Assembly (NCBI GenBank): GCA_964036195.1
Contig: OZ038460.1
Span: 19,245,526 to 19,309,525, forward strand
Direction: 5' to 3'
DNA length: 64,000 nucleotides
DNA from: Sphaerolaimus hirsutus
Taxonomy: Eukaryota; Nematoda; Chromadorea; Monhysterida; Sphaerolaimidae
Shown here: positions 6,166 to 62,800 of the stretch, piece by piece
How the letters are laid out: each line of letters begins with the position of its first letter
How positions within the stretch are numbered: the first letter of the stretch is position 1
Translations under genes and position numbers: made by a program
Notes under the pieces: model-generated
Seen by the model: only the letters and a program-made list of their open reading frames with translations
What the model was told of the DNA's origin: nothing
Database searches by the model: none

Positions 6166-6505
6166 TGGACAGGGACCAGTCCCAAACCTTGTAAAAGACC
6201 CTGTAAAATGTCAAAAGTTATGTGAAAGACCCTGTAAAATGTCAAAAGTCATGTAAAAGGCGCTGTAAAATGTCAATTGTCAAGTTCCACGTAAAATGTC
6301 AAAAGTCAACGTGCGTTTGCCATTTTCCAGCAAATTTTACTGACTTTTGACACTTTGCATATGACATGGTACAGGCCCTTTTACATGACTTTTGATATCT
6401 ACAGAGAATTCGACATTTTACAGGGCCCTTTATGTGATTTTTGACATTTTACAAGGAACTTGACATTTTACAAGATTTTTTTATAGGATCTGGGATTGGC
6501 GCCTG
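6165..6505. mobile_element. Family B MITE (CCTGTAAAATGTC arrays)
   Basis: The left half carries CAGTCCCAAACCTTGTAAAA followed by repeats of CCTGTAAAATGTCAAAAGT. The right half carries the inverse (ACATTTTACAGG and GGATCTGGGATTGGCGCCTG). The whole folds as a long imperfect hairpin and codes for nothing. Confidence 0.65.
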
Positions 6506-12036: not shown

Positions 12037-12218
12037 CAGGTGGCAGTCCCAAGCCCTGTAAAGTGTAAAGTGTCAAATGTAAAGTAAAGTGTCAATCAAA
12101 ACAAAAAAGAAAAGATTTAGTTATTGAACTTTGCATGACAATTGACACTTTACTTTACTTTTGTCATGACAATTGACACTTTACTTTACACTTTACAGGG
12201 TTTGGGACTGCCCCCTGG
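12037..12218. mobile_element. Family B MITE, near-complete
   Basis: A textbook copy: CAGGTGGCAGTCCCAAGCCC at the left, GGGTTTGGGACTGCCCCCTG at the right, and between them AAAGTGTCAAATG repeats and inverses that pair over most of the length. The left end contains CAG followed by GTGG, a ready-made 5' splice site (compare Neto intron 15). Confidence 0.85.
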
Positions 12219-27700: not shown

Positions 27701-30700
27701 ACAACTACCTACATTGATAAATTGACTTATCTCTTATACACCTGTGGGGGAAAAAACCCAGCCACTTCTACCCGAACAAATTATTTAAGCAAATTTGGTC
27801 ACTTTGTGGGCTTAGCCAAATAAATTATGGCGCACTTGCGCAGGAAGAGTTCCCGAATGAGAGCTTGGCAACTTCCCAACTTTTTGACATCTCTATAAAT
27901 ATAAACACAGTAGGTTAAAAATAGGTACATAACCATGTATACATACGAAAATAGCGATTATGAACTTAAAAATTGAGCGTGTTTTAGCGATTTTGAGCGA
28001 AAAATTGGGGAAACATCGCTTGGACTTGGACGTGGGTCAAATCGCTTAGCTAGCTTGGACTAAATGACAAGTTCTCATACATGACCCGATCCTTTGCGCA
28101 GGTACGGCTTCTCACCGCTTATTGGTCGCTTCTGCGGGCTGACGTTCCCCACGCGGAGCATCCGCGCGAATAGCGGGTTTATGTGGCTGCACTTCCATTC
28201 GGACGGATTGCTAGAGTATCACGGATTTCAGGTGCGTCGCGATTTGTCCGCCAGTGGAGATTTTGCGGCGAAAGTGGGACATTTTTAGTGCGGTAATTTT
28301 TCCGGTAGTCAGTTGCAATCTCCAGTACTCAATTTTGGTATACTAAGGACCTTTTGGGGGCGGCACACCCCCACGTACTCTGGGGTCCGTATACAATCCA
28401 CCCCCGGTCCAAATCCTGACAGCTTCCCTTCCTATTTACAACCTAACTTATCATTTGACAAGTCTCATAACCTAGGCCGAGTACCGTTTCGAGCCGCGCG
28501 CCGGCGCCGGCTCGCTGCCGGGTTCCGGTTCCGTGTCGGGTTCCCAATCGGGTACCCGAACATCGCACGACTGCCAGTTCAGCCCGCCCGATCGGGCTGA
28601 CGGGTTTATAAGCACGGACATTATGAAGGCCTTCTACAAGTACTACAGCAATGGCAGCGATGCTATTGAATGCGTGTGGAAGATCACTGTGGATGAAGAT
28701 ATGCAGGTGGGGGATGCTCTGTGGACATCATTACTCACTGGACATCTGTTATTACGGCATACATATGGGAATGATTTGTGGGCATGTTTTCGACTTAAGG
28801 ACATCCAATGAACGTGTGCAATTAGAGCCACCGTGGAACAGAGGGAGTCAAATAGTATTCTGTATATTGGACTGGAATTTTTTTTCAATTTCAGGGCGAA
28901 TTTCAGGTTCTGCTGAAAATAATCCCATTTTTCAAATTCATTCCTTTGAAAATGTCTTTCCATTAAATATCAAATGCAATATAATATAACGTGAATTAGT
29001 ACTAGAATTTAAACTGCAGTCACAGTTAAATTTCATGAAATAATACCTGCGTGAACTGTAACATGTCCAGGTAGCTGAGATGTCCATTGGGTATTGTTGC
29101 TGAGCCGTTTGTGTTATTGAAAATTGATCGGTTCATTGGAACGGAATCCGATATATCTGTTGTTTGATTCAATACAAATACCACGTGAATCCTTGAATAT
29201 TTGAATCAGGGGCTATTTAGGATCTCCACAAATTTCACACACTCCCCGACCATTGTTAGCGGACACCCCCAAGCACCCCCTAACCCCCTGGACACCCCTC
29301 TACTCAGATCCGCCTTTTCATGCACGAGTTCACCCTAGGGCGCCCTAACGAGTGCGCCCTAAACTTCATGGAGATCTACGCGGGGAGTACTGCGGGCGCG
29401 CCCATGAAACGCTACTGCGGCATGAACGCCGGGCACGTGCGCACTGGGTGGCCCACTGCGTATGTGAGGATATATGCTACTAAGGAGGCCTTGGCGGGGG
29501 TGAAGATTAGGGCCCTGTACTCGGCTTATGCTGCTGGTTGGGGGGGGCTTTTTTGGGGGGGGGGCGGGGTTAAAGTCGACGTGGTTTTAATTGGGCAATT
29601 TTGTTCCACTTGTGTGCGATTACGTTGTCCTAAATTCAAATTTGAATGGACGGATTCCGTTCGGTTCAGTGGCGTATAGGGTTCAAACGGGATCCCGATC
29701 CCGATCCCGGATCCCGTGAAATTCCGGGATTTACCAGTCCCGATCCCGATCCCGATCCCGAAACCCCAATCCCGATCCCGATCCCGAAATCTCAAAAATA
29801 CCAATCCCGATCCCGATCCCGAAAGTTTTCAAATCCCGATCCCGAGAAACTCCCAAGTCCGGGATCCCGATCCCGGAAAAATTAGTGGAAATTATAAAAA
29901 GTGAAATAATGACGTTTTTGCATGCAAAAAAGTGGATGCAAACCCCCAGCGTCAATTTTATGCCACTTTTCTGGCATCCAACAGTGTTTTGAGACCTTTA
30001 TGAACAACTGTGAATGCCAGAAAAATGGCCAAAATATCTATCCTTAGAACCCAATCCCGATCCCGGAAAAATGCCTATCCCAATCCCGATCCCGATCCCG
30101 TGACCCCAATCCCGGCCAATCCCGATCCCGATCCCGATCCCGAAATCTCAAAAAAACAATCCCGATCCCGATCCCGAAACCCCAATCCCGATCCCGATCC
30201 CGATCCCGAAATCTCAAAAAGTGAATCCCGATCCCGATCCCGATCCCGAAAAGTCAATCCCGTTTGAACCCTAGTGGCGTAGCCAGGATTTTTGAGCGGG
30301 GGGGGGGGGTTGTATACGGAGCCCGGCGAACGGGGGGGGGCGGCGCCCCCCCCCTTAAAATTTGGCCCTATGATAGCGGAATGGAGTTATGGCGCTGGCG
30401 CCATTCGTAGGCGCCGCGCCATTGCGTGATTGGCGTCGGCGTTGGCGCCAATGGCTACAATATAAGAAAAGTTTTATACCTAGATGTCTGAAAATTGGTA
30501 CCGCATTTAGTAATTTGAAGCGGTATTTATACTAATGCGACGTACATAACAACCAGAGAGATTGTGAGGGACGAAATGCGCGCTTGCGCGCAAAATTTTT
30601 GAAAAAAACCGACAAAATCGGTATAGAAAAGAGCCCTTCTCGGCAATTTTTATGTGCGGCGCGGGAAGGGGGGGGGCGGCCGCCTCCCCCGCCCCCCTGG

Positions 30701-33700
30701 CTACGCCACTGGTTCGGTTACCTGTTTGTTTCATTCAATCCGAATTTTTTATGGGCGTACAGTCTACGTAAGTACGTCATTTGGCTCAGTGCCAACATTT
30801 CATAATGTGTCTCCCGCCAACTCAGTGAAAAACTGCTCCGAGGCGGGTTTATTCTCGTGCGACGACGACACGTGCATCCCGGAGTCGCTGGTGTGCAACA
30901 CGAGGTCCAACTGTGTGTATGAGAAGGATGAACACAACTGCGGCCAGCGTTAGTTGGGGTGCCCCCAAGCCGCCCCCCCTCAATGACTTTGGCACCCCCA
31001 GACCCACCCACCCCCCTCATTTGCTGGCCAGTTAGGGATTTGAAATGGTATTACTTGTATACCCCGTGGACCGAGTGCTTTACATTTTTCTGGGGGAAAT
31101 GCTCTATGACGATGACATCAGCATGAGAAAAATTTGGCGTAGCTCCGAATATAAAAAATTCAATATTAAATTTTCTAAATAACAGCGAAGCCATAGCGCA
31201 CTTTTTCAACATATTTTTCGTTTAAAAGCATTTATAAGTATCCTTTGGCGAACTGCCATTGCACAGACAGACATAACTTTAAGCACGCATGTCAAGTATT
31301 CCGTGTAAATTTGTATATAAATTTTTTTAAATTCAAATCGATAGTACTTTTACTTTTTTTCGTCACTGAATTTTGGGGGTCAATCCCTATCTCCCTCCAC
31401 CGCACCTGAACTAACTCACACTGACTAGCGTGTTTGGCTTGCAATTTCATTTAAAACCTACCTGCAATTTTTTATAATGTACATTGAAGTAGGTATACTC
31501 AGACGACCGCACACTATGCATCTTTCTGAAGGAAAGGCTCCTTCACGACGTCATCGTTAATACAATCAGATTTGTTCACAAAATAAGAAAAATGTGTTTA
31601 AAAAAAACATTTGTCGCTTGCACGCGACTCCGCCTTTTTCTTTTTAGCACATTTTTTTATGTTGAGTGTGTGGATAAGTATCCTGCTCGCACGTTCTGGA
31701 CTAAGACCTAAGTAATTTTGGACGCATACCTTGCGGTCCGCCGAGTATACTAATCTCGCGGAAGTGGTCTCTGACACATCTGCAATGCTGCTACGGCAAA
31801 TTTGAACCACTGCCTAAAAAATCAGCCAAGAAAGTTGAAAGAACACCTTATTGCCCACTTAATATTGCAGTTTTCACACTACCACATATACCTAATAGTA
31901 TATTCCACTCACATTTGCCCCCACCCCAACACCAAATGCACATTTTTTTGCCCGCAAATCATCCTGTCTCACATGCAAAAATTAATGCCCCACCCACACG
32001 ATCAGATTACCCCAGTCCCAGTGCGTAATGCGGTAACACTGTGCACGTTTGATATAATTCATGTGTAAAATACCGTACAGGCTTGAATGTTATGCTTGAA
32101 TAGAGTCGCATGTTTCAATTGATACTACCCTGAAAGAAGGGAGAAGGGGCCACCCTGAAATGTACAATAATGTGAAGTGTACTGATCGGTACCACTGCCA
32201 GTCCGCGTAAAATGTCATGTCAAATGTGACAATGTCATGCAATGTGCCAAAAATCAGGTAAACTGCACTGTAAAATGTCAAATGACAGGTACATTTAAAA
32301 GAAAATCTGACATTTTACAGGATTTTTAACATAGTTTTTTTTTACACTTTGCGTGACATTTGACATGTTACAGAGCATTTTACATGGTCTGGACGTCGCA
32401 CCTGACTGAACGCTATATAAAGAATGTTACCGTACTTTGTTGAATGAACTTTGATCAACTGAAAAATTTTACACCAAATTCATTCATAGATGAAACAAAA
32501 ACGAGAGCAATCTAATGGCCCTGCACACACTAGTTTTCACAGGAAATTTCGAAAGCTCATAAATGAGCTTTGAATTTGTTTGAGTTTTCCACAATAGGTC
32601 ATTTTTAATTTCCGTCAACTGTAGTTGACGGTCACCTCATTGTAGAAAACTCAAATGCGTTCTAAGCTTATTTGTGAGTTTTCGAAATTTCGTGTGAAAA
32701 CTAGTGTGCGCAGGCATAATATGCCTACACACTAGTTTTCACCGTGACTTCGTGTGAAAACTGAAATTTTGTCAAATGCAAATTAATGAACACGGTTGAA
32801 TGATTTTATTAAAGTTAATTTGAATTTAAATTAATAAAAGTAGAAATTTGAAAATTTTCAAAATAAAACACATAAAGCATACAAAAAGAGTAGGCTGAAT
32901 GTCGCCATGTCGCCATTTCAGTTTTCACATCGGTCACGGTGAAAACTACCGTATTTCTTCTAATAGAACGGCATACCTCCAATAGAACGGCACCTCCAAT
33001 AGAACAGCAGGTTTTGGCACTTTTTTGCATTCACGAAAACAATAGAACGGCAGCCTTCAATAGAACGGCACCTCTAATAGAACGGCAGGTAAAAAAGTTG
33101 ACAAAAAAATAGAACAGCGTTCTTCTATTAGAAGAAATGCGGTAGTGTGTGTAGGGCCAATATGATGAAACATAAAAAGTTGTGGTTTTGTATTCAATTG
33201 ATTATGGTAGGTTTCATTGCAAATTTTGAGGTCAGTCGGCTACAGCTCAGCACCTGAATATTTAGATTGCCCTGTTTGAATACATTCGCCCGCTTACAGA
33301 ATGTGCGCATTTATTGCCAATTTTATAAACTCACGTGCTATTTCTGTGTCTAACTATTGTCGGATGCGTGAAACTGAATTCTGAAATTGTGAATTTAATT
33401 TTATGAATAGTTAAATGAGACGCCCTCAAATTTCCTGAATAAAAATTAACAAGGCGCATAACTGTTCAAGCTTTTACGGTATATTACGAAATCATAAATA
33501 TGTTTCTTTCCCTATTGGCAATTTTTATCGAATTTTTTGCAATGCTTTTGGACTGAATTGGGATAGTTATATTCAATGCGCGCGCGCCACATGATAACTG
33601 TTATTTTTAGATTTTTTGATTGTGTGGATTATCAATACCGTAATTCCTCGAATTACCCCCGGGGGGTTTATTTTTTCAGAGTGAAAATTTTGAGAGAAAA

Positions 33701-36700
33701 ACGTGAAAAATGCAACAATAACCACCATTTACAAGTTTTTACAGCCTTATATAAAGATGTAGATGGTATAAACGATGTTCTAACGTAACACAGTAAGTGT
33801 TTGGAACGTCTGTTATGCATTTCCCAGACCACAAATTCATAGTGCCCATTTGAGGGGGTATTTCGAGGGGGGGGGGTATTTCGAGGAAATACGGTATTTT
33901 AAAATTTACTCGCGGATATATCATGCGGCGCTGCAGGGTTAACTTGCATTTTGCATGCCTCAATATGTATATATTTAGTTTACCTTTCTTTATTTGGATT
34001 ACTTTTTGTTTGAACCAATCTTGTAGAGCATCTGTTTCAGTAGAGCAGTACACAATTCAAATCACATCCAGTTTCAGACGACGTTTCAAATGGCCTGAAG
34101 ATATGAAATAAAATTTCATATTCAACGTAAAATGTACATACAAATGAACATTTTTATCAGCTTATTGAATGGTATTTTTAAAGTTGTGTCTTGACTTGGC
34201 ACTTGAAACTTTTTGTCAAGTTCGATTTAGAATTGGTGCCAGTGCTGTTTAGATGCTCAACCAAATGCTTGGAAATTGGGATAAATTCCGCAAATGGACA
34301 AGTGACAAGTAAAACGGAAAGTTTTAAGTACCAATACACTTCAATGGCGGCCGACACTAGTTGACACCGCGTGTCGACTGGGGGCAGTCCCAAGCCTTGT
34401 ACAGTGTACAGTAAAGTGTCAAATGTAAGGTCAAATGCAAAGTAAAGTGTCAATCAAAACAAAAAGGAAAAGATTTTATTACTGAACTTTGCATGACAAT
34501 TGACACTTTACTTTGCAATTGACTTTGCATTTAACACTTTACTTTACACTTTACAGGGCTTGGGACTGCCACCAGGTCTGTGTCAACTCAGATTTCAGCT
34601 TCACGTGTTGCTGAGCCATCTTCCAATGCACCTGCCGTCGTAATATTTATTTATCAACATTTCTGCATGTGCATTAGGAGATCCCTCTGCTATACGTGGA
34701 GAAATCTGAGTTGACAGCGACCAGTTGGCTGGCATGTGGGCCTCCAAAGTATAATAAGAAGTGAATTCCGAAATGAAAATGTGTCGATAAATCCAAACTT
34801 GTGAGTTGACATCGATACCATCTAGGTAAATACATATTTCCTTGTCGCATGTCCACTTGTGGACCGGGTGCCAGTTCCGCCAGATGAGAAGTAAAATGGC
34901 AAATGCGAAGTGAATTGAGAAGAAAATTGGCAAAAGCGAAGTGAAACGGCAGGTAAATTGGCAAAAGCGAAGTAAAAAAATAAAAAGTAATTTCCCTTCG
35001 CTTTTGCCAATTTCCTTCTCAATTCACTTCTCATTTCACTTCGCATTTGCCATTTTTCTTCTCAATTTCTGGAACTGGCCCCTGGTAGCCGCTGCATTGC
35101 ACCCGCCTGTGTCACGGGATAAATAGTTTTGCTCATCAGTCAACTAATTATTTGTTTTACATGACAAAATTTGCCTGACATCATACCACCATTAAACGTC
35201 ATCGTATGGATGCGTAGACAACATTAGCTGATTTTTACTCACTTTTAACTTTACCTACTTCTCACCAACTGATTTTAGTTATTTAGTTGCACCTATAGGA
35301 AATACACTTTTTTGCAAATTTCTCTTTGTTATCAAAAAAAAAAATTGGTGACTAGCATTGATGTAAATATTATCACCCAGCCCGAACTTCAGTAAACTAT
35401 AATAGCAGAAAAATAGGTAAAAAGTAGCTAATCATAATGACAGATGCGCAAAACCTCAAACTTCCACCCTAGCCTTCAAAATTCACAACCAATCAAAACC
35501 CATCCAATAAACTCCGCCCCCTTCGCAGCCGAATCTTCGGGTCCCAAAATCGCCCTACACGGGCCCTACCTGATAATCCTGGTGGTGATATGCAGCATAA
35601 TTATGTGCATCGTGGCTTGCGCCCTGGTGCTCAATTGCTGCCCCGCGTGCCGCCGCAGACAGGAACAATATGATAAATTGCTCAGACAGCAGGCTCAAAT
35701 TGGAGGGCATAGTGGTTGGTGTGGAGGGCGAAGTAGGGCTGGGTCGGCTATGTTCGGCGTTGTTCAAATGAAAAATGTGTGAAAATAGTTGGTGGAAAAA
35801 TAGAATGGCGGACTCCAATAAGACGGCAGGTATAAAAACTGCACCTGCACCTGCAATAGAACGGCACCTCCAATAGAACGCCAGGTGAAAACTTTGACAA
35901 ATAAATAGAACGGCGCTCTTCTAGTAGAAGAAATACGGTACATATACTTTGGGTGAAATCTTCGCCACAAATACTAAAATACGTCACAATCAGGGTGTCA
36001 AAAACATATTTTTACGGAAAACGGAAAGGTAAAAAAAGTTCACTTGGCGGAAAATAGAAAACGGAAAGGTAAAAAAAATTTGTCCGCCGGAAAACGGAAA
36101 CGGAAATTCGCACCCTTATAATAATATAGCCCAAGACATATAAATAAATCGCCTTTTCAAACAGGCATGAGTCTGGCGGGTGGGCACAATTCCGCCGTCA
36201 CTGGCTTCACCACCAGCGGAGTTCCAGGTGCGCCGATTTTTTTGATCTACCTTTTTTTATTTTGATGATTTTTGATGGAACACAAGGTTTGGTAATTTCT
36301 TTTATTAAAAATCGAAACTTCTGAATTTGCCAAAAAAAATTCAGATTTTTTTATTTTCGACAATGCTGTAAATAACAACACAAAAATACGATAAAAAAAC
36401 CCCCTCAATTTCACATTGAACTATGCATGGCGTTACGGCGCTCGTGTTCAATACGAGAGGTGCGGGTTCGATTCCCGCCTGAGGCGAGTGCAATTTTGCA
36501 CTCTTTCTCTATGCATGGTGTAAAAAGATAAACCCATGCAAATGCGTCTGCGGCAAACGTTTGGAAGCTCGCAAAACAAGGATTTATCCTTATAAAATTT
36601 CTGAAAAATTTCACATAGGGTCACTTGGATTCCACACGAAAAATTCAAAATATGAGCGTTCCTCTACAAAATGAAACCTTCCAGTGTTCCATCAAAATCA

Positions 36701-39700
36701 CTTTTTATGTATTTTTTAACGAAACCTGTGAAGGGAATGCATCTGCATGTTAAGTTAATTTAAATCACCACACAGAATGAACTGAACTTTGCTTGTATCC
36801 ACTTTTTGCCATGCTATGCCATTCTAACTTTCACTGTTTGCTTGCACCTTTCATAAAATTGAATTGAGAAATTGGGATTAATTTTTTTTGGTGAATTTGA
36901 ATCCCGACGCTATCACGGGGGCAGTCCCATAGTCCAGGCCTTGTAAAATACAGTGTTAAATGTCAGTGCCATGCAAAGTGTGTAAACTCGTGAAAAGTGA
37001 CGTTAATTTTTGAGTTCGGCGTATTTTGTCGGGCAGCCAGGGTTTTCCGAAAAAAATGGGAACATCAATATCGGGTTGCCCGCAAAAACACTTGTCGGGC
37101 TCATAAAATATCATCCCAGATTTTATATAGCAGCTTTTCTAAGTACCCGTAGGGCAACCAGTAGGGCGCGTCGGGCCCGTACTAAGCACTTACACTGCAC
37201 CGTGTCGCATCACACTGTAAATATAGGCGCCGAAGGGCTGACGCCTTTGAACCGACGGAGGCACACCCTACCCGCTGTTATATCAGGTGACCCTTTGCTT
37301 TTTGTCCGCTTGGAGTTTACCTAGGTCTTTTGTTCTGCGAGATAATGGTCCTGTTGAGTTTGCCCGACATTTTTTTGTCGGGCTGCCCGATTTGTTGCGC
37401 TGGAAGATACCGTAAATTCTTGAGTAAGCTCCAGGGGGTTATTTTTCATCAGACTTTTTTAAATTGTGGTGTTTTTAGAGGGTGGTGTAAATTTTTAATC
37501 AGAATTTTCAGTAAGGTATGAATGATAGTAATGATCGATTTTTTGTATGAATGGGGTTAAATTAGTTTTATAAGTCTGTAAACTAGAATACAAATTCCAT
37601 AATTCAAGCAATGAAATTAATACTAGTGAACATCAGCTAAAAAGGAATACCTACATGTGTTTACAGAATACTTTCATTAAAAAGTTTTTTGAGTGATGCG
37701 CTTATTCGAGTATTTATGTAGACTTAATGGGCACATTAAGTGTGTGCATATTTATAGTAGAATAAAACTTCTCCAACATAAGTTTTTGTCTGCTTTTTTA
37801 CTCTCCTGTCATTCAATAAATGAATTTATCAAGGAGAGTTTATCAGGTTGTTTTTCAGAATTTTTTTCTAAACTACTTAATTAGTACCAAAAAAGGTGTT
37901 CAGTAGGGGGTTGGGGGGGGGTTACCCCCATATTTTTTCCAATGCACTGAATCGGGTTGCCCGAAAAAAAGACGTGTCGGCTTCGGGCTAGTTGAATTTC
38001 GTCCCAGGTCTCGTGTACTCGTCCAACGTTATGTGTTATATTATATTTTTGTGCTTCAGTTTACTCACGCTATATATTTTAGATATGATGGTCAGCTTTA
38101 AAAGTATAATGGTGTCTGTATTGAGATCTGATCAAATTTAAATGGAACTTTATGCTTTTGTCCGGGGGTGGTGCTGCCGAAAATGTAAAAAAAAATTTGA
38201 GATGGTCCCTGTGTTTTCGGGAGCTTTGAATTTGCTTTTGTGTAAACTTTTTTTTGTGAAACCGAATAATTAACAAATGTGCCCGTTGCCCAAAAAACAA
38301 TAACAAATAATTCAATGAAACATAATGAAAACAATAGTTTCTTTTTTTCTGTCCCAATTTTGGCAAAAACAGCGGGTTTATGTGTTTACAGTAATAAATA
38401 GTAAATAAGAAAGTATCAAGTAACAAATCATGTGACAAGTATAGTAATTTAGAATTTTAATTATGACGTTGCCAATTTTTGTCACTTTTCCTTGAGGAAT
38501 TAGCCCCTGATGATACAGGGTGTCAAGGCAACTTTTCCAAAATGAAAATAAATCTAATAAAAATGTTACTGATGTAATACTATGCACCAGGTTCTTAACA
38601 CATCTAACCCACTTTCCATTTTTATGCACTTATTCAAAAACTTAGATCAAACTAGCTCCAAAAACGTAAATACCGTATTTCCTCGATTTACCCCCCCTTG
38701 AATTAACCCCCCCCCCCCTCGAAATACCGCCAGGTGTTTTTGAGCTGGGGAAAAAATAACCCCCCCTCGTGAATACCCCCGTCTGGAATTATGTACATGA
38801 TGTATGCAATGTACATGATGTATATGTTGGTCACAGTTTGCATCGTAGCTACACATGTAAATACTAGTTTGTGTAGCGATGGACGTTGATTTATCCAGAT
38901 ATACTCTACTTGGACACGTTGATTACCTGTTTTGGGTATGCAAAAGCGTACTCATTACTACGAATTTCGTGAAAATTTCTGACGAAATAATACCACCCCT
39001 CGAATAAGCCCCCCCTCGAAATACCCCCCCTATAATATAATTTCCACTTTGAAAAAATAAACCCCCTGGGGGTATTTCGAGGAAATACGGTATAAAAATT
39101 GTCATAGACGGATAATGGCAGGATCGTTTCAGCAGTATTTTTTAGTAAAGTACACAAATAAAATATCCTATATCCTGGGAGAAGTCCCCAGGGGGCAGTC
39201 CCAAGCCCTGTAAGGTGTAAAGTAAAGTGTCAAATGTATAGTCGAAGGCAAAGTAAAGTGTCAAATGTATAGTCAAAGGCAAAGTAAAGTGTCAAATGTA
39301 AAGTTAAATTTAAAGTAAAGTGTCAATCAAAACAAAAAAGAAAATATTTTATTACTGAACTTTGCATGACAATTGACCGTTTACTTTGCATTTGACTTTA
39401 CATTTGACACTTTACTTTGCATTTGACTTTACATTTGACACTTTACTTTGCATTTGACTTTACATTTGACACTTAACTTTACACTTTACAGGGCTTGGGA
39501 CTGCCACCAGGGAAGTGATTTTTTCGTCAGATTTTTCGCCTGGGTAGTTAATGCTTGTGAACAACTGCTGCAAAAGTGTATAGAAAGTGTGAAGTCGTTT
39601 CACATCGCTTCACCGCAAATCACACCCGATTTCCACTATTCGCGTCTCTTAAAGATCACATTCAATTAAAGCACTAATTAGAGCGCACCGTGTGCTTTCC

Positions 39701-42700: not shown

Positions 42701-44985
42701 TAGGTGGACTGTAAGTAAGGAAGCAGAATGCACCGTACCGTACCGTTACCGACAAAATATAAAATGTACCGTACCGCACAATTTCCAGCAAACTCAAAAG
42801 GCCACCGCACCGCACCGTTTACCGCCAACCAGAAAAATACCTTTTCACCACCCCACCCACACATATCACCCTCAATCCACGCAGACACCCAGACGAAGCT
42901 CAACACCAAGGCTACGCGCCCGATTATTCTCGGGGGCACTTGGGCCGCGGCGCGTCGACCGGCTCGGACGACTGGCTGCCGCCGCCGCCGCACCACACCG
43001 GGTCGGGTCACTTGTTGCCCGAACGAGGGCAACCCGACAGAGATAGGGCGCCCGTGGCTAGTAGATTAGCCCTGCATAATTATGTGTGCGGTGGGTTTAG
43101 GGGGGGCGGTGGATTTGGAATACACCTACCTACCCTATGTGTCATCGCGACGTGAATTTGATATTCCAGTGACTATGCAGCATACAGTCGTGCTTCACGT
43201 TGGAAGCGTGCCAACGATGTTATAAACACATGCGATTTTCATTTAAAAAAGTTGAAAAAATCATCACTGTGGTAACATTATATGTGAGCGTATTCACAAC
43301 AATGGATTTTTCAATTTTTTTTTAAAAACCTCATGCTTTAATAATCATTGGCACGCATCCAACATGAGACAATCATAATTGCGAGTGCAGACTGTGAAGT
43401 CAGAAACGCGAAAAATTACGTGTTTGCAAATTACATTTTCAATACAAATTACATACAAGGAACGAATTATCAATACATGGTTTAAAAACAGTTGTTTTTT
43501 TTGCAATAAAAAAGAAACATCACAAACGCATCACAATCGGCGCCACAACAGGCACAGCGGGCAGCTCCAGCAGCAGCCACATCGGAGGGCCCTCGGTCGG
43601 GCCGTCGGGCGCGTCGGGCAAGCTGCCGGGCCCCGGGCGGAAGCACCAAGTCAAGGCGCGGCCGAGACAACTGCAGGCGCCGCCGCTGCGCAGACACCCC
43701 GTGCAGTTGGCCACCGGCGGGCAACAGTCGCAGCTGCCCAACGGGATGTTGCCCAGCGGGTCGGGCGGCCCGACAGCCCTGCAGCAGCAGCAGCACTGGC
43801 CCGCCGTGCTGACTACCGCGAGCACGTCGAGCACGGGCAGTAGTACTAGCCCCATGGCCAGGTACGGATTGGGTTGCACACGTGTGCGAGTGCAACCATG
43901 GGAGTTTTGAGTTTGTTTTGGATGGAAGGATAGTGGATCGGTTTGGGGGGTTTGGGTATATTAAGATATATTTATATAGCCAAAATAGCTGGAAATACCG
44001 TATTTCCTCGAAATACCTCCCTCAAAATGGACACTATGAATTTATATCCACCCCCCCCCCCCCCAATATAGTGTATAGAGAACGTGAATGACAAAAGCTA
44101 CGGTGTGTGATCCGGAAAACACAGAACACACGTTAAAAACAATGACTGTGTTATGTTAGAACAGAGTATTATACATGGTGGTTTTTGTTGCATTTTGATA
44201 GCTGGCCACCCCCAATTTTGGGGGTAAACCACCCCTACTACCTGAACATCTGTTATGCATTTCCCGGACCACAAATTCATAGTGCCGATTTTGAGGGGGG
44301 TATTTCGAGGAAATAGGTAAATTTATACCCTCCACTGTATCCACTGTCACATGCACACGCACCCAGGCGGCAGCGCATGGTAACTTTCTCCATGGAGAAA
44401 TCCGCCACGGGCATGGGCGGCACCCCAGTGCGCTCGTCTCGCAAACGGGCGCCGGGCGACGGCCAGCCGCAGCAGAGCCACGCGCGCGCCCAGGTGTCAA
44501 TCCCGGACCCTGTAAAATGCCCTGTAGAATGTAAAATGTCATGTAAAGTGTCAAAAGTCATGTAAAATGCCCTGCAAAATGGCAACTCGGTTGCCATTTT
44601 GCAGGGCATTTTACATGACTTTTGACACTTTACATGACATTTTCCATTCCACCTGTCATTCCACAGTGTCCTGGACCGCCTCCAGCAGTGGTGCAGCGAA
44701 CCTGTGAGCCTGGCCGCGCTGGCGGCCGCTTACCAAGCCGAGATGGAGTCCGAACAACTACAACGGTGGAACGGCAGCGCGGCAGAGCAGCGCGACAAGC
44801 GCCGCTGCGACAGCGAGACGCCGCCGCCGGCGCTGCAGCGGCGGCAGAACCACGCGCCGTCGCAGCCGCCCGCCACGTTGCCCAAGCCCAAGCCCAAGTT
44901 CGAGTCGGGCGCCGCCGCGGCTGATAGGGTGCGCACCGCCCCGCAGACCGGCGACAATTATAAGGAGTATGTGACTAGAATTTGA
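24682..44985 (+). CDS. neto: Neto-like protein (CUB-CUB-LDLa-transmembrane), 16-exon model
   Basis: Neto proteins are single-pass auxiliary subunits of kainate-type glutamate receptors in vertebrates and are needed to cluster glutamate receptors at the fly neuromuscular junction. The model gives 1017 residues: signal peptide (about 1-34), CUB1 (C71 to about 217, with RDGRYGFSPLIGRFCG), CUB2 (C243 to about 363), LDLa (six Cys: 367, 375, 380, 387, 393, 402), transmembrane helix (about 418-440), and a tail of about 577 residues rich in Gln, Pro, Ser and Gly. Domain order and the CUB1/LDLa motifs fit the Neto family specifically. Exons: 24682-24787, 25923-25993, 26330-26515, 27160-27296, 28102-28231, 28476-28706, 29308-29536, 30826-30948, 35529-35714, 36165-36227, 39718-40119, 41862-42108, 42885-43090, 43552-43861, 44367-44493, 44686-44985. 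Phases agree at all 15 junctions and the total is a multiple of three. The tail exons rest on frame and splice sites only, without homology I can name. Confidence 0.82.
24922..25078. mobile_element. Family B MITE in Neto intron 1
   Basis: GTGCCCGTCCCGGACCCTGTAAAATG at the left and its inverse (TATGGTCTGGGAGTGG) at the right, with TGCAAAATGTCAA arrays. It is a small fraction of the intron, unlike intron 15. Confidence 0.7.
25397..25657. mobile_element. hAT-like element in Neto intron 1 with exact 8-bp duplication
   Basis: The ends are CAAGGACGTATCCAGG and CCTGGATACGTCCCTG, inverted. GTATTTCC precedes it (25389-25396) and follows it (25658-25665). The interior is poly-G/poly-C text plus GGCGCCAGCGCCATGGCGCC. 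The host is a family A element (about 25386-25771), split in its left terminus. Confidence 0.88.
25923..25993 (+). CDS. neto: Neto exon 2: short helical linker
   Basis: Encodes VHAASDPVSKQQLDEYAALL and four more residues after TTTTCGCAG. It joins exon 1 in phase 1 and ends in phase 0 at AAG/GTTGCA. The heptad-like spacing of Leu suggests a short helix before CUB1. Small exon, moderate support. Confidence 0.65.
26330..26515 (+). CDS. neto: Neto exon 3: first half of CUB1
   Basis: Residues 60-121 include C71, the VSSPNYPLVYPPNTDC motif typical of CUB strands 1-3, and the HVIEAP...SLQFVGQFFQ core. Acceptor CCACCTACAG, donor CCAG/GTTGGG, phase 0 on both sides. Confidence 0.85.
27160..27296 (+). 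CDS. neto: Neto exon 4: middle of CUB1 with a long loop
   Basis: Starts IEPPYVSGD and ends CPADFFEIRDGR (the DxFEIRDG strand of CUB domains). Between them are about 30 residues (VSGDVSPAIHANLGGDTSGM and following), where the loop is usually shorter. Acceptor ATCTTCAG, donor AAG/GTGGGA, phase 2 out. Confidence 0.82.
27390..27700. mobile_element. Family D-like MITE in Neto intron 4
   Basis: Text such as ACTCTAGTTTACTGCCAGA at the left pairs with TCTGGCAGTAAACTGGTT at the right. The interior has paired AACTCATAAATAGGCTCTGAACGC-type and CAAAGCCGATTTATGAGTT segments. The pattern matches family D copies at 32516-32722 and 59822-60475. Confidence 0.5.
28102..28231 (+). CDS. neto: Neto exon 5: end of CUB1
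   Basis: RYGFSPLIGRFCGLTFPTRS followed by SGFMWLHFHSDGLLEYHGFQ: the C-terminal CUB strands, with FCG cysteine and the LHFHSD acidic site. In other CUBs this region contributes to calcium binding. Acceptor TTTGCGCAG, donor TTTCAG/GTGCGT. Confidence 0.88.
28476..28706 (+). CDS. neto: Neto exon 6: CUB1-CUB2 linker and start of CUB2
   Basis: AEYRFEP closes CUB1. A Gly/Ser-rich linker follows, then HDCQFSPPDRADGFISTDIM and AIECVWKITVDEDMQ open CUB2 (C243 and the ECVW cysteine). Acceptor CCTAG, phase 0 on both sides. Confidence 0.82.
29308..29536 (+). CDS. neto: Neto exon 7: second half of CUB2
   Basis: IRLFMHEFTLGRPNECALNF then MEIYAGSTAGAPMKRYCGMN and a V/I-rich strand ending IRALYSAYAA. The two cysteines (NEC, YCG) complete the CUB2 set. 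Acceptor CTACTCAG; phase 1 at donor CTG/GTTGGG. Confidence 0.85.
29667..30711. mobile_element. hAT-like element in Neto intron 7, GTGGCGTAGCCAGG ends, with nested element
   Basis: It starts CAGTGGCGTAGCCAGG once the nested element is removed, and ends CCTGGCTACGCCACTG. The duplication GTTCGGTT flanks it exactly (29659-29666 and 30712-30719). Poly-G blocks and GGCGCC text fill the interior. It occupies most of the intron before the LDLa exon. Confidence 0.88.
29677..30273. mobile_element. CCCGAT-hexamer hAT-like element nested in the GTGGCGTA element
   Basis: The ends TAGGGTTCAAACGGGAT and ATCCCGTTTGAACCCTA are inverted. GTGGCGTA is duplicated on both sides (29669-29676, 30274-30281). Both halves carry arrays of CCCGAT. 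The centre contains a GCCACTTTTCTGGCATCCAA segment also found in the copy at 59936-60381. Confidence 0.9.
30826..30948 (+). CDS. neto: Neto exon 8: LDL-receptor class A domain
   Basis: One exon encodes a whole LDLa module: CSEAGLFSCDDDTCIPESLV then CNTRSNCVYEKDEHNCG. All six cysteines and the acidic DxxDEHNC-like calcium site are present. It is entered and left in phase 1, as is usual for such modules. Acceptor CCAACTCAG, donor CAGC/GTTAGT. Confidence 0.9.
31495..31752. mobile_element. Family F2 MITE in Neto intron 8
   Basis: TATACTCAGACGACCGCACAC at the left; GCGGTCCGCCGAGTATAC at the right. It shares GACGTCATCGTTA and CACGCGACTCCGCC text with the other F2 copies. Confidence 0.65.
32185..32405. 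mobile_element. Family B MITE in Neto intron 8
   Basis: Inverted TGTAAAATGTCAAATG arrays between CCACTGCCAGTCCGCG and GGTCTGGACGTCGCACC. Diverged ends. Confidence 0.55.
32516..33163. mobile_element. Two family D MITEs, one carrying a family E element
   Basis: The first (about 32516-32720) has GCCCTGCACACACTAGTTTTCAC and GTGAAAACTAGTGTGCGCAGGC ends. The second (about 32722-33163) has CCTACACACTAGTTTTCACC and, once 32949-33142 is removed, GTGAAAACTAGTGTGTGTAGGGCC. Confidence 0.7.
32949..33142. mobile_element. Family E MITE (TAATAGAACGGCA repeats) at a TA target
   Basis: Ends CCGTATTTCTTCTAATAGAA and TTCTATTAGAAGAAATGCGG, inverted, with TA on both sides. Between them are repeats of CAATAGAACGGCACCTC. 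Removing it restores the family D terminus, so the boundaries are exact. A partial second copy lies at about 35785-35940. Confidence 0.85.
33638..33895. mobile_element. Family A MITE, CGATGTTCTAACGTAAC subfamily, in Neto intron 8
   Basis: Third copy of the subfamily at 10043 and 16663, in the 16663 orientation. It shares GAGAGAAAAACGTGAAAAATG and GATGTTCTAACGTAACACAG text. Confidence 0.78.
34360..34830. mobile_element. Family G element interrupted by a family B MITE
   Basis: CACTAGTTGACACCGCGTGTCGACTG at the left is cut by a clean family B element at about 34379-34577 (GGGGGCAGTCCCAAGCC to GGCTTGGGACTGCCACCAGG). Text with GTGTCAACTCAGATTTC then resumes and is inverted near 34700-34815 (AATCTGAGTTGACAG, GTTGACATCGATACC). 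Confidence 0.6.
34858..35083. mobile_element. Family C MITE in Neto intron 8
   Basis: GGTGCCAGTTCCGCCAGATG at the left and CTGGAACTGGCCCCTGG at the right. GAAGTGAATTGAGAAG and GCAAAAGCGAAGT repeats pair with their inverses. This is an intact hairpin of the family that forms two Apollo introns. Confidence 0.75.
35529..35714 (+). CDS. neto: Neto exon 9: transmembrane helix
   Basis: After a short stalk it encodes GPYLIILVVICSIIMCIVAC then ALVLNCCPACRRRQEQYDKL: a 23-residue hydrophobic helix followed by a membrane-proximal Cys/Arg cluster, the stop-transfer signal. Acceptor CCCCTTCGCAG, phase 1 on both sides. Confidence 0.88.
35785..35940. mobile_element. Partial family E MITE just after Neto exon 9
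   Basis: CCAATAAGACGGCAGG and CAATAGAACGGCACCTCC units end in CTAGTAGAAGAAATACGGTA. The left end is lost or diverged near 35785. Confidence 0.6.
36165..36227 (+). CDS. neto: Neto exon 10: short cytoplasmic exon
   Basis: Encodes GMSLAGGHNSAVTGFTTSGVP in phase 1 on both sides, between TTCAAACAG and CCAG/GTGCGC. Small and without homology, but phase and splice sites fit. Confidence 0.6.
36421..36518 (+). mobile_element. tRNA-derived SINE-like remnant or tRNA pseudogene
   Basis: A good T arm (GCGGG, loop TTCGATT, CCCGC) follows an anticodon-like arm (CTCGT, loop GTTCAAT, ACGAG) whose anticodon would be TCA. The 5' acceptor strand is missing and the D arm is shortened. A hairpin GAGTGCAATTTTGCACTC follows. 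CTATGCATGG flanks the unit (36421-36430 and 36509-36518) like a target duplication. A working tRNA is unlikely. Confidence 0.5.
38672..39091. mobile_element. Family A MITE in Neto intron 10
   Basis: TACCGTATTTCCTCGATTTACC and TATTTCGAGGAAATACGGTA ends. The centre resembles the copies at 4409-4823 and 22401-22824 (ATGTACATGATGTAT-type text). Confidence 0.72.
39195..39513. mobile_element. Family B MITE in Neto intron 10, expanded array
   Basis: GGGGGCAGTCCCAAGCCCTG at the left, GGGCTTGGGACTGCCACCAGG at the right. The inner array AAAGTAAAGTGTCAAATGTA is repeated several times and pairs with ACATTTGACACTTTACTTTG units on the other side. Confidence 0.85.
39718..40119 (+). CDS. neto: Neto exon 11: Gln/Pro-rich cytoplasmic tail
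   Basis: 134 codons, Gln- and Gly-rich (for example SEQLQRQRQLHPSRSMGAHL and DALQQRYYPPVVLAAQR). Acceptor AAATTCAG. The donor AGGG/GTGTGT keeps phase 1. The frame is the one demanded by exon 10. Two overlapping shadow frames in the GC-rich block are rejected on phase. Confidence 0.65.
40196..40675. mobile_element. Family M palindromes in Neto intron 11
   Basis: CTGGGCTCTGATTTAATTGGG with GCCCGGCAAATGCAAATG-type text at the left pairs with TTTGCATTTGCCGGACG and CCCAATTAAATCTGGGCCCTG near 40510-40565. A second small palindrome (ATGTCGGGCGCCCGACAC to GTGTCGGGCGCC, ending CCGGCCCCTG) follows. The ends match the foldback at 7589-9262. Confidence 0.6.
41862..42108 (+). CDS. neto: Neto exon 12: cytoplasmic tail
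   Basis: Begins GELLAERESLLPPGVDGGHS and contains CASHDVLRQGHYLCAPGVDQ and an acidic DPDDPLEGGWEMRQMGG. Acceptor after a 10-base poly-C tract (CCCCAG). Donor ATTAG/GTGGGT, phase 2. Confidence 0.68.
42885..43090 (+). CDS. neto: Neto exon 13: cytoplasmic tail
   Basis: Encodes HPDEAQHQGYAPDYSRGHLG then ASTGSDDWLPPPPHHTGSGH and ends ASRLALHNYVCG. Phase 2 in, phase 1 out (GCG/GTGGGT). The preceding intron carries GTACCGTACCG repeats of family I type. Confidence 0.68.
43552..43861 (+). CDS. neto: Neto exon 14: Ser/Gly/Gln-rich cytoplasmic tail
   Basis: Starts GTAGSSSSSHIGGPSVGPSG, includes basic PGRKHQVKARPRQLQAPPLR, and ends ALQQQQHWPAVLTTASTSST plus GSSTSPMA. Phase 1 in, phase 2 out at CCAG/GTACGG. 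Several long antisense frames overlap; they are GC-rich shadows. Confidence 0.68.
43995..44320. mobile_element. Family A MITE in Neto intron 14
   Basis: TACCGTATTTCCTCGAAATACC and GTATTTCGAGGAAATAGG ends. It contains CATAACAGATGTT-type and GTTATGTTAGAACA text of the 10043 subfamily. It ends about 40 bp before exon 15. Confidence 0.65.
44367..44493 (+). CDS. neto: Neto exon 15: basic cytoplasmic segment
   Basis: RRQRMVTFSMEKSATGMGGT then PVRSSRKRAPGDGQPQQSHA and RAQ. Enters in phase 2 from CACCCAG. It ends in phase 0 at CCCAG/GTGTCA, where the CAG belongs to the left end of a family B MITE that forms the next intron. Confidence 0.68.
44494..44685 (+). mobile_element. Family B MITE forming the whole of Neto intron 15 (introner candidate)
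   Basis: The 192-bp intron starts CAG/GTGTCAATCCCGGACCC and ends GTGTCCTGGACCGCCTCCAG. These are the two inverted ends of family B (compare GTGTCACTCCCAGACCC at 48116 and GGACTGCCACCAGG at 39500). TGTAAAATGTCATG repeats between them pair into a hairpin. Both splice sites fall inside the element's ends, and both sides are phase 0. Confidence 0.75.
44686..44985 (+). CDS. neto: Neto exon 16: C-terminus, possible PDZ ligand
   Basis: Starting at GCCTCCAG/CAGTGG in phase 0, it reads QWCSEPVSLAALAAAYQAEM ... TLPKPKPKFESGAAAADRVR ... GDNYKEYVTRI-stop. The terminal T-R-I fits a class I PDZ ligand (S/T-x-hydrophobic). An alternative start at 44667 would need a weaker donor. A GTGACT within the last codons could be a donor, so the stop is likely but not proven. 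Confidence 0.6.
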   Translation, partial: QWCSEPVSLAALAAAYQAEMESEQLQRWNGSAAEQRDKRRCDSETPPPALQRRQNHAPSQPPATLPKPKPKFESGAAAADRVRTAPQTGDNYKEYVTRI

Positions 44986-47999: not shown

Positions 48000-48275
48000 C
48001 AGGGGGTGATCCCAGACCCTGTCAAATGTCATGAAAGTGTCCTACCTGAAAATCCTGCAGCATCCCGGTGATATGCAGCATAATAATGTGGATCTTGCAC
48101 AGTGCTTGCCGTATGGTGTCACTCCCAGACCCTGTAAAATGTAAAATGTCATGTAAAGTGTCAAAAGTCATGTAAAATGCCCTGGAAAATGGCATCCATT
48201 TTATAGGGCATTTACATGACTTTTGACACTTTACATGGCATTTGACATTTTGCAGGATCTGCGACTGGCACCAGA
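48000..48275. mobile_element. Family B MITE inserted in another family B copy
   Basis: An outer GGTGATCCCAGACCCTG fragment at 48006 is followed by a complete inner element at about 48114-48275 (GGTGTCACTCCCAGACCCTG to GGATCTGCGACTGGCACCAG). The inner left end gives the family B consensus used to interpret Neto intron 15. Confidence 0.65.
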
Positions 48276-49514: not shown

Positions 49515-49749
49515 ATGTCGACCCGCTGCCGGCGGGGCCGCGGCCGCGCCCGCTCCTCGTCCGGCTCCAACGAGGACTGCGAGCCGCCCGACGACAAAAG
49601 CGCACCGAATTCAGCCGCCGATGACGATAATAAGGCGGGGCCTGGCGGCGGGGCGTCTTCCCGCCGCGCGGCGACTTGGTCGTGCAGCGTGTGCACCTAT
49701 GAGAACAAGAGCAGCGCGTTCAAGTGCGATATGTGCGATAGTAGGAAGG
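49515..49749 (+). CDS. RYBP: RYBP-like exon 1: start and zinc finger
   Basis: MSTRCRRGRGRARSSSGSNE, then an acidic stretch, then ATWSCSVCTYENKSSAFKCD and MCDSRKG. Four zinc-binding cysteines are intact. Ends in phase 1 at AAGG/GTTGGT. The NZF dipeptide that contacts ubiquitin is usually T-F; here it reads T-Y. Confidence 0.88.
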
Positions 49750-59800: not shown

Positions 59801-62800
59801 CACGCCGTTGTTGTTCAAATGGCCCCGCGCACACTAGTTTTCACACGAAATTTCGAACACTCATAAATGAGCTGTAAACGTGTTTGAGTTTTCTGCAATG
59901 AGTCATTTTTGATCTCCGCCAACTGTAGTTGACGGTAGGGTTCAAACGGGATTGACCTTTCGGGATCGGGATCGGGATTGGTTTTTTGAGATTTCGGGAT
60001 CGGGATCGGGATTGGCCGGGATTGGGGTCACGGGATCGGGATCGGGATTGGCATTTTTTCGGGATCGGGATTGGGGTCTTGGGATAGAGATTTTGGCCAA
60101 TGTTTTGGCATTCACAGTTGTTCATAAAGGTCTAAAAACACAATTGGATGCCAGAAACGTGGCATAAAATGAACGCTGGGGGTTTGCGTTCACATTTTTG
60201 CATGCAAAAACGTCGTTTTTTCACTTTTGATAATTTCCACTAATTTTTCCGGGATCGGGATCCCGGACTTTGGAGTTTCTCGGGATCGGGATCGGGATTT
60301 GAAAAGTTTCGGGATCGGGATCGGGACTGCTAAATCCCGGAATTTCACGGGATCCGGGATCGGGATCCCGTTTGAACCCTAGTTGACGGCCACCTGATTG
60401 TAGAAAACTCAAATCCGTTCTAAGCTGATTTGTGAGTTTTCGAAATTTCGTGTGAAAACTGGTGTGCGCAGGCACATTGGGCCCACACACGCTAGTTGAC
60501 ATCGACACCAAATGTCAACTGGTGCCGATCCCGATTCAAAGCTTGCTGACGAGTGAACGAACGACGTTAAAACGCAATCTTTGAATTAGGAACGGAACCA
60601 GTTGACATTTGGTGTCGATGTCAACTAGCGTGTGTGGGGCCAATGAGACACGACAAACTGATCATATGCCTTAAGTGGGGATTATTCACTGGGGCTCATT
60701 TTTCCCCACTCGTTTTACAGGGGGAATTATTCAACAGTGAGAATTATTCAAGAGGTTAATTATTCAGGGGGTATTATTCAAGCAGCCACGGTAACCATTT
60801 GCAATGACAGCAACGCGTGTGCGTCAGCGCGGACATGCTGCGGCGGGTGGCGGCGCTGCGCAGACCCGACTGCTACACGACCGATTTGGGCCGCACCAGA
60901 CTCTACGCCGTGTCCGGCAACGAGGTTGGGTCGGTGGCACTGCACTAGGGTGGCAGACGGTACGGCCTTGCGGTAAACCGTACGGTGCGGTAAATTTTCT
61001 CTTGCGGTAAACGGTACGGTAAATCTCCAATTATGCGGTAAACTGTACTGTACGGTAAATCTGAAGTGCGGTTCGCGGTAAGGTAAGGTACGGTACGGAA
61101 ATTTTCCAAAAATGCGGTACGGTACGGGAAATTTTCCAAAAATGCCGTACGGTGCGGTAAATTTTCCAAAAATGCGGTAAGGGACGGTACGGTAAATTCT
61201 GCCACCCTACTGCACACGGTGGCTGTCAATTGGTTTCCATGTCAATTTGAGTTGACGGGTCACGGCTAGTGATGAAAAAGCGCAAGAACTTTGGCGCCGA
61301 GCACCGCGGCGCTTCTCCGACGCCCCGCGCCAGCGCCAATGGCGCCATTGCAAATATGCGCGAAGCGCCATGGCGCTATTTCCTTTGGCGCCAGTGACAG
61401 GCGCCGGCGTCATGCCGCTTTTTCCTAACTAGCCACTTGACAATTTCTATTTGAAAATCGTCATGCGACGGGAAAACTTAAATCTGAGTTGACGTCGACG
61501 AGTTGACATTCAAATCACAAATGTCAACTCAACTAGCGTGTATAACGCTTTTTAAAGCGTCGTGTGCGCAGGTGTGCAACGTAGCCAAATGCGAAGCGCT
61601 GGTGCGGTCGTGGCGCGACGCTCTGGGCGGTGATCAGGTGCCAATTCTTCAAGTGGATAAAGTGACAAGAAAAGTGGTGACTAAGGTTAAGTGTGATAGG
61701 TCAATTGTGAAAAGGGAAGTGAGTGGATGTGACTCGTACCTACATGAATTTTAAAATGTAAAAACATGTAAAGTTCTCTCGTCACTTATTCAGGTTCCCT
61801 CGTCACATGTCGCTCATCACTTACCACTTTCTTGTCACTTAACCACTTTGGAAATTGGCCCCTGGAAAACGTGGCCGTGCTGCTGCCCAGCGCCGCGCCC
61901 TGCTTCGTACCCGCATTGAGAAATACCGTCGACAGGTGATTGCATGGATTTCGGGTATTTTGAATGACTTTTACTGCGGTTCGGATCGGTTTGGAGTTTT
62001 CATTCACCGGGACCGAGACCGGAATTTTCATTCACCGGAACCGAGACTGGAGTTTCATCGGGATTGGGTGGTCTGCATTGGGACACCGCCAGTCATAGAT
62101 TTCCAACCCTAGCGTTCCATGCATTTACGCACCCGTGTGCTTGATTATCTTTGACGCGTAACGTTTTCCGTGCAGATTGAGGCAGGGCAGCAATTTCCCG
62201 TTCTTTTGGGTGCCCTATTCCGATCACTCGACTCGCGAAGAGATTATCACCTTCGTTCAAAGGTGTGCCTACACTAGTGGTGGAAAAGTTTACCGTACCG
62301 TTTCGGTACCGAATTTACCGCACCGTCCATGTCGCGCGTAAATTTCCGGTAAATAGTGCGGTGCAATTCCCGACGGATTTAGAATGGGAAAGTTCACTTT
62401 TCAGCGTGTAATAGTGTGAGAAAATTGACCGTACCATAGCGGTAATTACCGGTAAATGTCCGATTTCACCGGTAATTTACCGTAGTTTTTTTGTAGTCCA
62501 AACATGTCGGTATTGCAAACATTCATTCATCTCTAAAATTCATCGACATGCATACATTTTTACAAAAAATAACAACAACAACAAAAACCCGTGTACACCA
62601 ACACAAAAATGCAGTCTCCATTCCGTGGCCGAAATCACGCCTCTCGACTGCAAGCGAGGCGTAACGCCCGACTTCTCCGAATATACCCGTTGCCCGACAT
62701 CGGGTTCGGGCGACCCGACAGCAGGTTCGGGCGACCCGACAGCGGGTTCGGGCGACCCGGCAGCGGGCGGGCACCAGGACCCGTTTGTGCTTGAAGGGTC

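Follow-up and report, generated by a model that had tools for sequence, protein, structure and literature searches.

We analysed a stretch of 64,000 nucleotides (below, the window) from contig OZ038460.1 of the nematode Sphaerolaimus hirsutus (assembly GCA_964036195.1, positions 19,245,526 to 19,309,525 of the forward strand). The plus strand of the window carries a gene with exons for two CUB domains (Pfam, 7.8e-10 and 3e-9) and an LDL-receptor A domain (Ldl_recept_a, 7.3e-7; the peptides were typed and joined by eye), and a transmembrane exon that was recognised by eye and has no Pfam match. We take this combination to be the architecture of Neto and name the gene accordingly. Downstream of these exons two open frames meet in phase 0 (...SHARAQ/QWCSEP..., the slash marking the junction) on either side of 44494-44685, a gap of 192 bases. 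The joined frame has a G+C fraction at third codon positions (GC3) of 0.80 (25 codons each side), and in-frame stops appear when the sequence in the gap is read through. In our opinion this gap is very probably an introner, that is, a non-autonomous hairpin miniature inverted-repeat transposable element (MITE) that entered a coding exon and is predicted to be removed as an intron. A family of such intron-making transposons is apparently present in the genome.

The element and its family

The Neto element consists almost entirely of an inverted repeat, with arms that are 90% complementary and a loop of 3 nt, and its RNA, taken with short flanks, folds at -131 kcal/mol (z = -16 versus shuffles). 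It is short, has inverted ends and a target duplication, lacks coding capacity and belongs to a family of many copies, which is what defines a MITE. Both ends are inverted copies of the family end C[AT]GGTGCCAGTCCCAGACCCTGTAAAATG-like, which also stands at 12040, 39192, 48116 and elsewhere in the window; in its wider form this end type reads C[AT]GG[TG]G[CG]CAGTCCCAGACCCTGTAAAATG. A relaxed scan for it gave 36 places on both strands of the window, a few of which are a GATCCC simple repeat outside the family; three mononucleotide shuffles, each scanned on a single strand, gave none. The false matches come from GATCCC/CCCGAT-like repeats at 29700-30100 and 60000-60400. At the edges of the other wider-family copies in the window no convincing coding frame was found, and in this respect they resemble ordinary intergenic or intronic MITEs; the Neto copy differs from such MITEs in that it makes up by itself all of a predicted intron flanked by coding exons.

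The 348-Mb assembly was searched with the Neto element. From 824 first-look candidates 40 were scored, with 82 matches, of which 30 loci were retrieved; most places were listed on both strands because the element is a palindrome, and five loci (L015, L019, L024, L026, L029) were dropped as other-strand duplicates. This left 25 distinct copies, and 24 for the duplication count, since L020 has no recognisable left end. The sampled copies are those most like the Neto copy, so the proportion of exonic copies among them cannot be taken as unbiased. When they are aligned with their flanks, likeness ends at GTGCCA on one side and at CTGCCCC on the other. The opposite end of the unit starts in most copies with GGGG, GAGG or similar, without a GT.

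Within this sample the Neto copy has the poorest right end of the 24 (8 mismatches out of 26 to the family end, against 3 at its left end). The 50 nt before its right target copy are 68% C+T, the highest value among 48 tails (24 copies, both strands; the next has 60%). Its right arm also reads TTCCACAG where many sisters have TTTTACAGGG, and, as in several sisters, one upstream AG out of the usual two is missing. This pyrimidine-rich acceptor tail looks like an adaptation after insertion, with the reservation that it is one case, preselected by the finding itself.

A CWG target site duplication

The element creates a 3-bp CWG target duplication. The triplets flanking it are identical in 19 of the 24 sister copies, where random pairing of ends by permutation gives 10.07 (p 0.00015), and they agree in 19 of the 20 copies that have CAG or CTG on both sides. 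As fetched, nine copies are CAG/CAG and ten are CTG/CTG; the remaining five do not match, with CAG/CGG in L003, CCG/CTG in L006, CTG/CAG in L007, CTG/ATG in L014 and GGG/CAG in L023. It follows that the Neto element proper is 44494-44682, and that the CAG triplets on either side of it are the two target copies. In ten window copies taken by themselves no duplication was visible, since among the older ones the middle base is often not the same at both ends, or the ends are worn. In the older wider-family copies 12040-12214 (CAG/CTG), 34381-34572 (CTG/CAG) and 6173-6502, the middle CWG base differs between the ends more often than in the copies closest to Neto.

The preliminary description of this stretch, made from its letters, had placed both exon ends in phase 0, had taken the two edges as inverted ends of a scattered family, and had suggested that the CAG on each side might belong to the footprint of the insertion. 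Our results agree with all of this. It had further held that the intron is exactly one MITE with nothing host-like between exon and element, and that the element brings its own splice sites, which needs correction. The hairpin does fill 44494-44682, the exons do adjoin directly and the donor GT does belong to the element; however, the last three bases, CAG at 44683-44685, are the second target copy, and the acceptor AG comes from this duplicated target.

Sister copies inside conserved genes

The evidence that carries most weight comes from other genes. In each case the element and one target copy were removed from the sequence, and homology was examined over the resulting junction. The copy in coatomer alpha (COPA) gives PF04053 at 4.5e-31 after excision, with a gapless match of 108 residues to coatomer alpha in PDB; that in an SLC12 gene gives 6.1e-35 (Pfam) and is gapless to SLC12A2; that in a Frizzled gene gives 6.5e-40 (Pfam) and is gapless over the junction to Frizzled-3; and that in a beta-1,4-galactosyltransferase gives 9.2e-27 (Pfam), also with a gapless match. 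The copy in Acinus has no Pfam match and matches PDB entry 6g6s at 1.2e-15, with a single one-residue gap near the junction. A copy in a WD40-type propeller gives PF25174 at 3.5e-4, far below Pfam's own cut-off. In all six, likeness between the copies begins at GTGCCA and continues through CTGCCCC (or a variant of it) and CAG, and so reaches both predicted splice boundaries. At five sister loci the protein is continuous at the insertion site in other species.

Five extra copies were found simply by lying in the fetched loci, and were not picked for their likeness to Neto. Two of them split a recognisable protein, both below the Pfam cut-off: L010:591-782 (CAG/AAG) lies in an MSP domain (3.2e-4), and L016:247-432 in a protein of the major facilitator superfamily (MFS; 2.2e-3). 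The remaining three have no convincing coding frame. Homology thus spans the junction in ten copies, eight of the 24 (including the two with CTG treated below) and two of the five extra ones. The GT end comes first on the gene strand in all ten, both CTG ones included (coin toss, 0.001).

In seven further copies among the 24 (Neto itself, L003, L007, L010, L018, L022 and L030) the joined frame is open, with a GC3 of 0.68-0.94, and has no significant domain. At loose thresholds Pfam found no domain in L003, L007, L018, L022 or L030, and in L010 nothing beyond a chance-level Vif (0.44). Two borderline frames, L006 (by eye like the tail of a G-protein-coupled receptor) and L012, have no Pfam domain either, and the other seven of the 24 were not judged coding. 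At L010 two copies, 591-782 and 1501-1689, stand on the same strand within about 900 bases, the first being the one that splits the MSP domain; they are perhaps two introners in one gene.

These sister copies, with the same edges in the exons of other genes and proteins that become gapless on excision (one gap in Acinus), support the introner structure that the preliminary description had expected.

Table 1. Features of the Neto locus, its element and related copies (positions in the window unless a locus is named)
Feature	Position	Strand	Basis
Wider-family copy, CAG/CTG, no convincing coding frame	12040-12214	+	end scan
CUB/CUB/LDL-receptor A/transmembrane exons, upstream part of Neto	26324-35600	+	Pfam and eye; edges approximate
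Wider-family copy, CAG/CAG, between Neto exons, edges without convincing coding frame	39192-39507	+	end scan
Upstream coding exon of Neto, predicted, frame ...MVTFSMEKSATGMGG...SHARAQ, ends phase 0	44367-44493	+	frame, GC3; start is a guess from CCCAG/GCGG
Target site duplication, left copy, CAG; doubles as exon side of donor	44491-44493		flanking triplets of sister copies
Hairpin MITE, 189 bp, GTGTCAATCCCGG to GGACCGCCTC; supplies donor GT	44494-44682	+	inverted repeat, sister alignment, fold
Predicted 5' splice site, CAG/GTGTCA	44494-44499	+	fits exact excision in sister genes; other in-frame choices exist
Hairpin left arm	44501-44586	+	90% complementary to 44590-44675
Hairpin right arm	44590-44675	+	90% complementary to left arm
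Candidate branch-point A, TTCCAC, 22 nt before intron end	44663	+	position and motif
Target site duplication, right copy, CAG; predicted 3' splice site	44683-44685	+	flanking triplets of sister copies
Next Neto coding exon, QWCSEPVSLAALAAAYQ..., open up to stop codon 44983-44985	44686-44985	+	frame, GC3
Wider-family copy without convincing coding frame, downstream of last Neto exon seen	48116-48271	+	end scan
CTG-on-gene-strand copies in coding-looking exons	L011:1489-1676, L013:1501-1692, L018:1504-1692	gene strand	flanking triplets

Objections and alternative explanations

Several observations weigh against the introner reading of the Neto gap. Some concern the splice sites. The predicted donor GTGTCA is weak past its GT, and an AG with a better pyrimidine tract, at 44665-44666, lies before the predicted acceptor; with the predicted donor it would shift the frame, and the candidate branch point at 44663 would probably leave it too near for use. 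Between 44380 and 44748 there are 45 frame-keeping GT-AG combinations, the most notable of which pairs GGT/GTCAAT at 44496 with TTCCACAG/TG at 44666. One could suppose that the MITE is partly exonised, with an intron of 44496-44666 and the ends of the element encoding seven extra residues (AQ-GVLDRLQ-QWCSEP). Such an intron is in frame and stop-free, its acceptor is the first AG after the better tract, and VLDRLQ resembles protein. Its donor, however, is far poorer than CAG/GTGTCA two bases upstream, and for the copies in COPA, SLC12, Frizzled and the galactosyltransferase the excision that fits stops exactly where the right target copy ends. We regard partial exonisation as improbable.

Others concern the history of the site. 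No domain or ortholog spans the Neto junction, where Pfam at loose thresholds gave a chance-level 0.34 and nothing else, so that the locus' own evidence consists of its frame, its codon use and the analogy with sister copies. If Neto had an ancient intron here, a MITE that later inserted at this intron or replaced it would imply no intron gain, and other wider-family copies do sit between Neto exons. Yet exon and element adjoin on both sides with no remnant in between, the two exons are joined directly by the CAG/CAG duplication, and sister copies in a number of unrelated genes are arranged in this way too, which would require a repeated coincidence. We consider this slightly less probable still than partial exonisation; the ancestor of Neto presumably had no intron at this position.

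A further objection comes from copies in exons that lack a terminal AG. In an OATP gene (L011, Pfam 1.9e-13 across the junction) and in a gene like an orexin receptor (L013, 2e-16 in Pfam, gapless to orexin receptor 2) the gene strand reads CTG/CTG, and exact excision would end in TG and not in AG. L003 (CAG/CGG) and L018 (CTG/CTG), which also lack the terminal AG, may be additional exon copies of this sort, judged from open frame and GC3, with no domain, and L006 (CAG/CGG on the gene strand) is perhaps another. A terminal AG is present in eight of the ten homology-supported copies, which taken alone is not significant (coin toss, p 0.055). A PDB query with the OATP protein, in which the second residue was given as K instead of R, returned no match; the tail of the OATP copy is the sole one of the 48 without any AG in the last 50 nt, and the next AG, judged by eye, stands 24 nt inside the exon and keeps the frame. 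These CTG exon copies may represent recent damage or polymorphism, the use of another AG, or a TG acceptor. L007:1501-1695, read on the strand whose frame is open and rich in GC3, has CTG on the left and CAG on the right; it is possibly a CTG insertion in which the right copy has mutated to an AG acceptor.

That the Neto insertion is itself poorly spliced and disrupts the gene of this individual, or lies in an exon of a decaying allele, is the least probable alternative: the OATP and receptor copies do show that exons of this assembly can hold AG-less copies, but the Neto copy looks older (arms 90% alike, a diverged right end, a pyrimidine-enriched tail) and both flanking frames are open.

A possible mechanism

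If the Neto gap is an introner, as we believe, the MITE would have entered a CAG triplet of the coding exon by cut-and-paste insertion, with duplication of this CAG. The transcript from the plus strand would then read CAG/GTGTCA...CCTC CAG/CAG, the family pattern being CAG/GTGCCA...CCCC CAG/, and the spliceosome would take out GT...CAG, the element plus one target copy, restoring the old reading frame to the base. To this the element would contribute the donor GT, probably the branch point, and a stem that brings its two ends, and with them the splice sites, next to each other, while the acceptor AG would be supplied by the duplicated target copy. The hairpin may help splicing. Orientation would count, the opposite end of the unit being mostly without a GT. 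In the many sisters with TTTTACAGGG the AG of this motif falls 19 nt before the intron end; if TTTTAC is read as the likely branch point, this AG would be too near for use and the terminal CAG would be the first usable one.

Relation to known systems

The origin of new introns is an old open question, for which introners provide an answer in some algae, protists and fungi.

Gozashti et al. 2022 (PMC9860276) describe the introners derived from DNA transposons as families of short non-autonomous elements that occur in unrelated genes and are alike right up to the two splice boundaries. The Neto family has in common with them the short non-autonomous unit, inverted ends, a target duplication and unrelated host genes. 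In the type of Chrysochromulina (Fig. 2C of that paper), as proposed for the Neto element, the 5' site is carried and the 3' site co-opted; that type differs in having a 4-bp duplication and no evidence of inverted ends, against a 3-bp CWG duplication and a full-length hairpin here. According to section 4 of the same paper, introners were found in only two animal groups, copepods being named, among 835 animal and land-plant genomes.

As to the transposon, the target site matches that of the NuwaI group of PHIS (PIF/Harbinger, ISL2EU, Spy). Han et al. 2015 (PMC4482050) describe this group from animal hosts, with a CWG target duplication and with 12-61 bp ends for which GGG is the usual start. 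The Neto family shares with this group the animal host and the 3-bp CWG duplication, all 19 identical pairs being CAG or CTG. Of its ends, one reads GTG(C/T)CA and the other mostly GGGGCAG. A difference is that the NuwaI elements described there carry a transposase and are about 4.5 kb long; the word intron is absent from the main text of that article. We infer that a NuwaI-group, PIF/Harbinger-related transposase, in PHIS a DDE transposase with a Myb/SANT partner, mobilises the family. The hAT superfamily, considered for the CAGGGG start, was rejected, the duplication being 3-bp CWG versus the 5-8 bp given for hAT (PMC4482050).

A literature search that lacked most subscription papers and bioRxiv preprints gave no paper joining NuwaI or CWG with introners, gave for introner with Harbinger a single fungal intron paper, and by title gave no arthropod or insect introner family. 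Among arthropod-related papers that mention introners, PMC10597677 describes one introner-like intron, in a desaturase gene of a bdelloid rotifer, and PMC12879420 cites an introner paper. The family may already be on record under the name of its species.

If our reading is right, a family that a known transposon group probably underlies, with a 3-bp target that doubles as a splice-site motif, has split deeply conserved genes exactly, and the birth of introns in an animal becomes directly testable. Any homolog would show the empty site of a conserved-gene insertion, and comparing CAG with CTG insertions would amount to a natural experiment on whether an AG is required. As a speculation that we ourselves find rather doubtful, this genome may be in, or recently have been in, a burst of intron gain that follows from target choice alone. 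A NuwaI-like transposase cutting CWG would give every sense-CAG insertion a 3' splice site and a good donor context at -3 to -1, to which the element would add the GT and the hairpin. CTG insertions would start as damage and then either come to use a TG 3' site or be rescued by a T-to-A change, of which L007 would be an example.

Outside the subjects above, the open frame at 49590-49720 resembles a zinc finger of the RYBP/YAF2 type.

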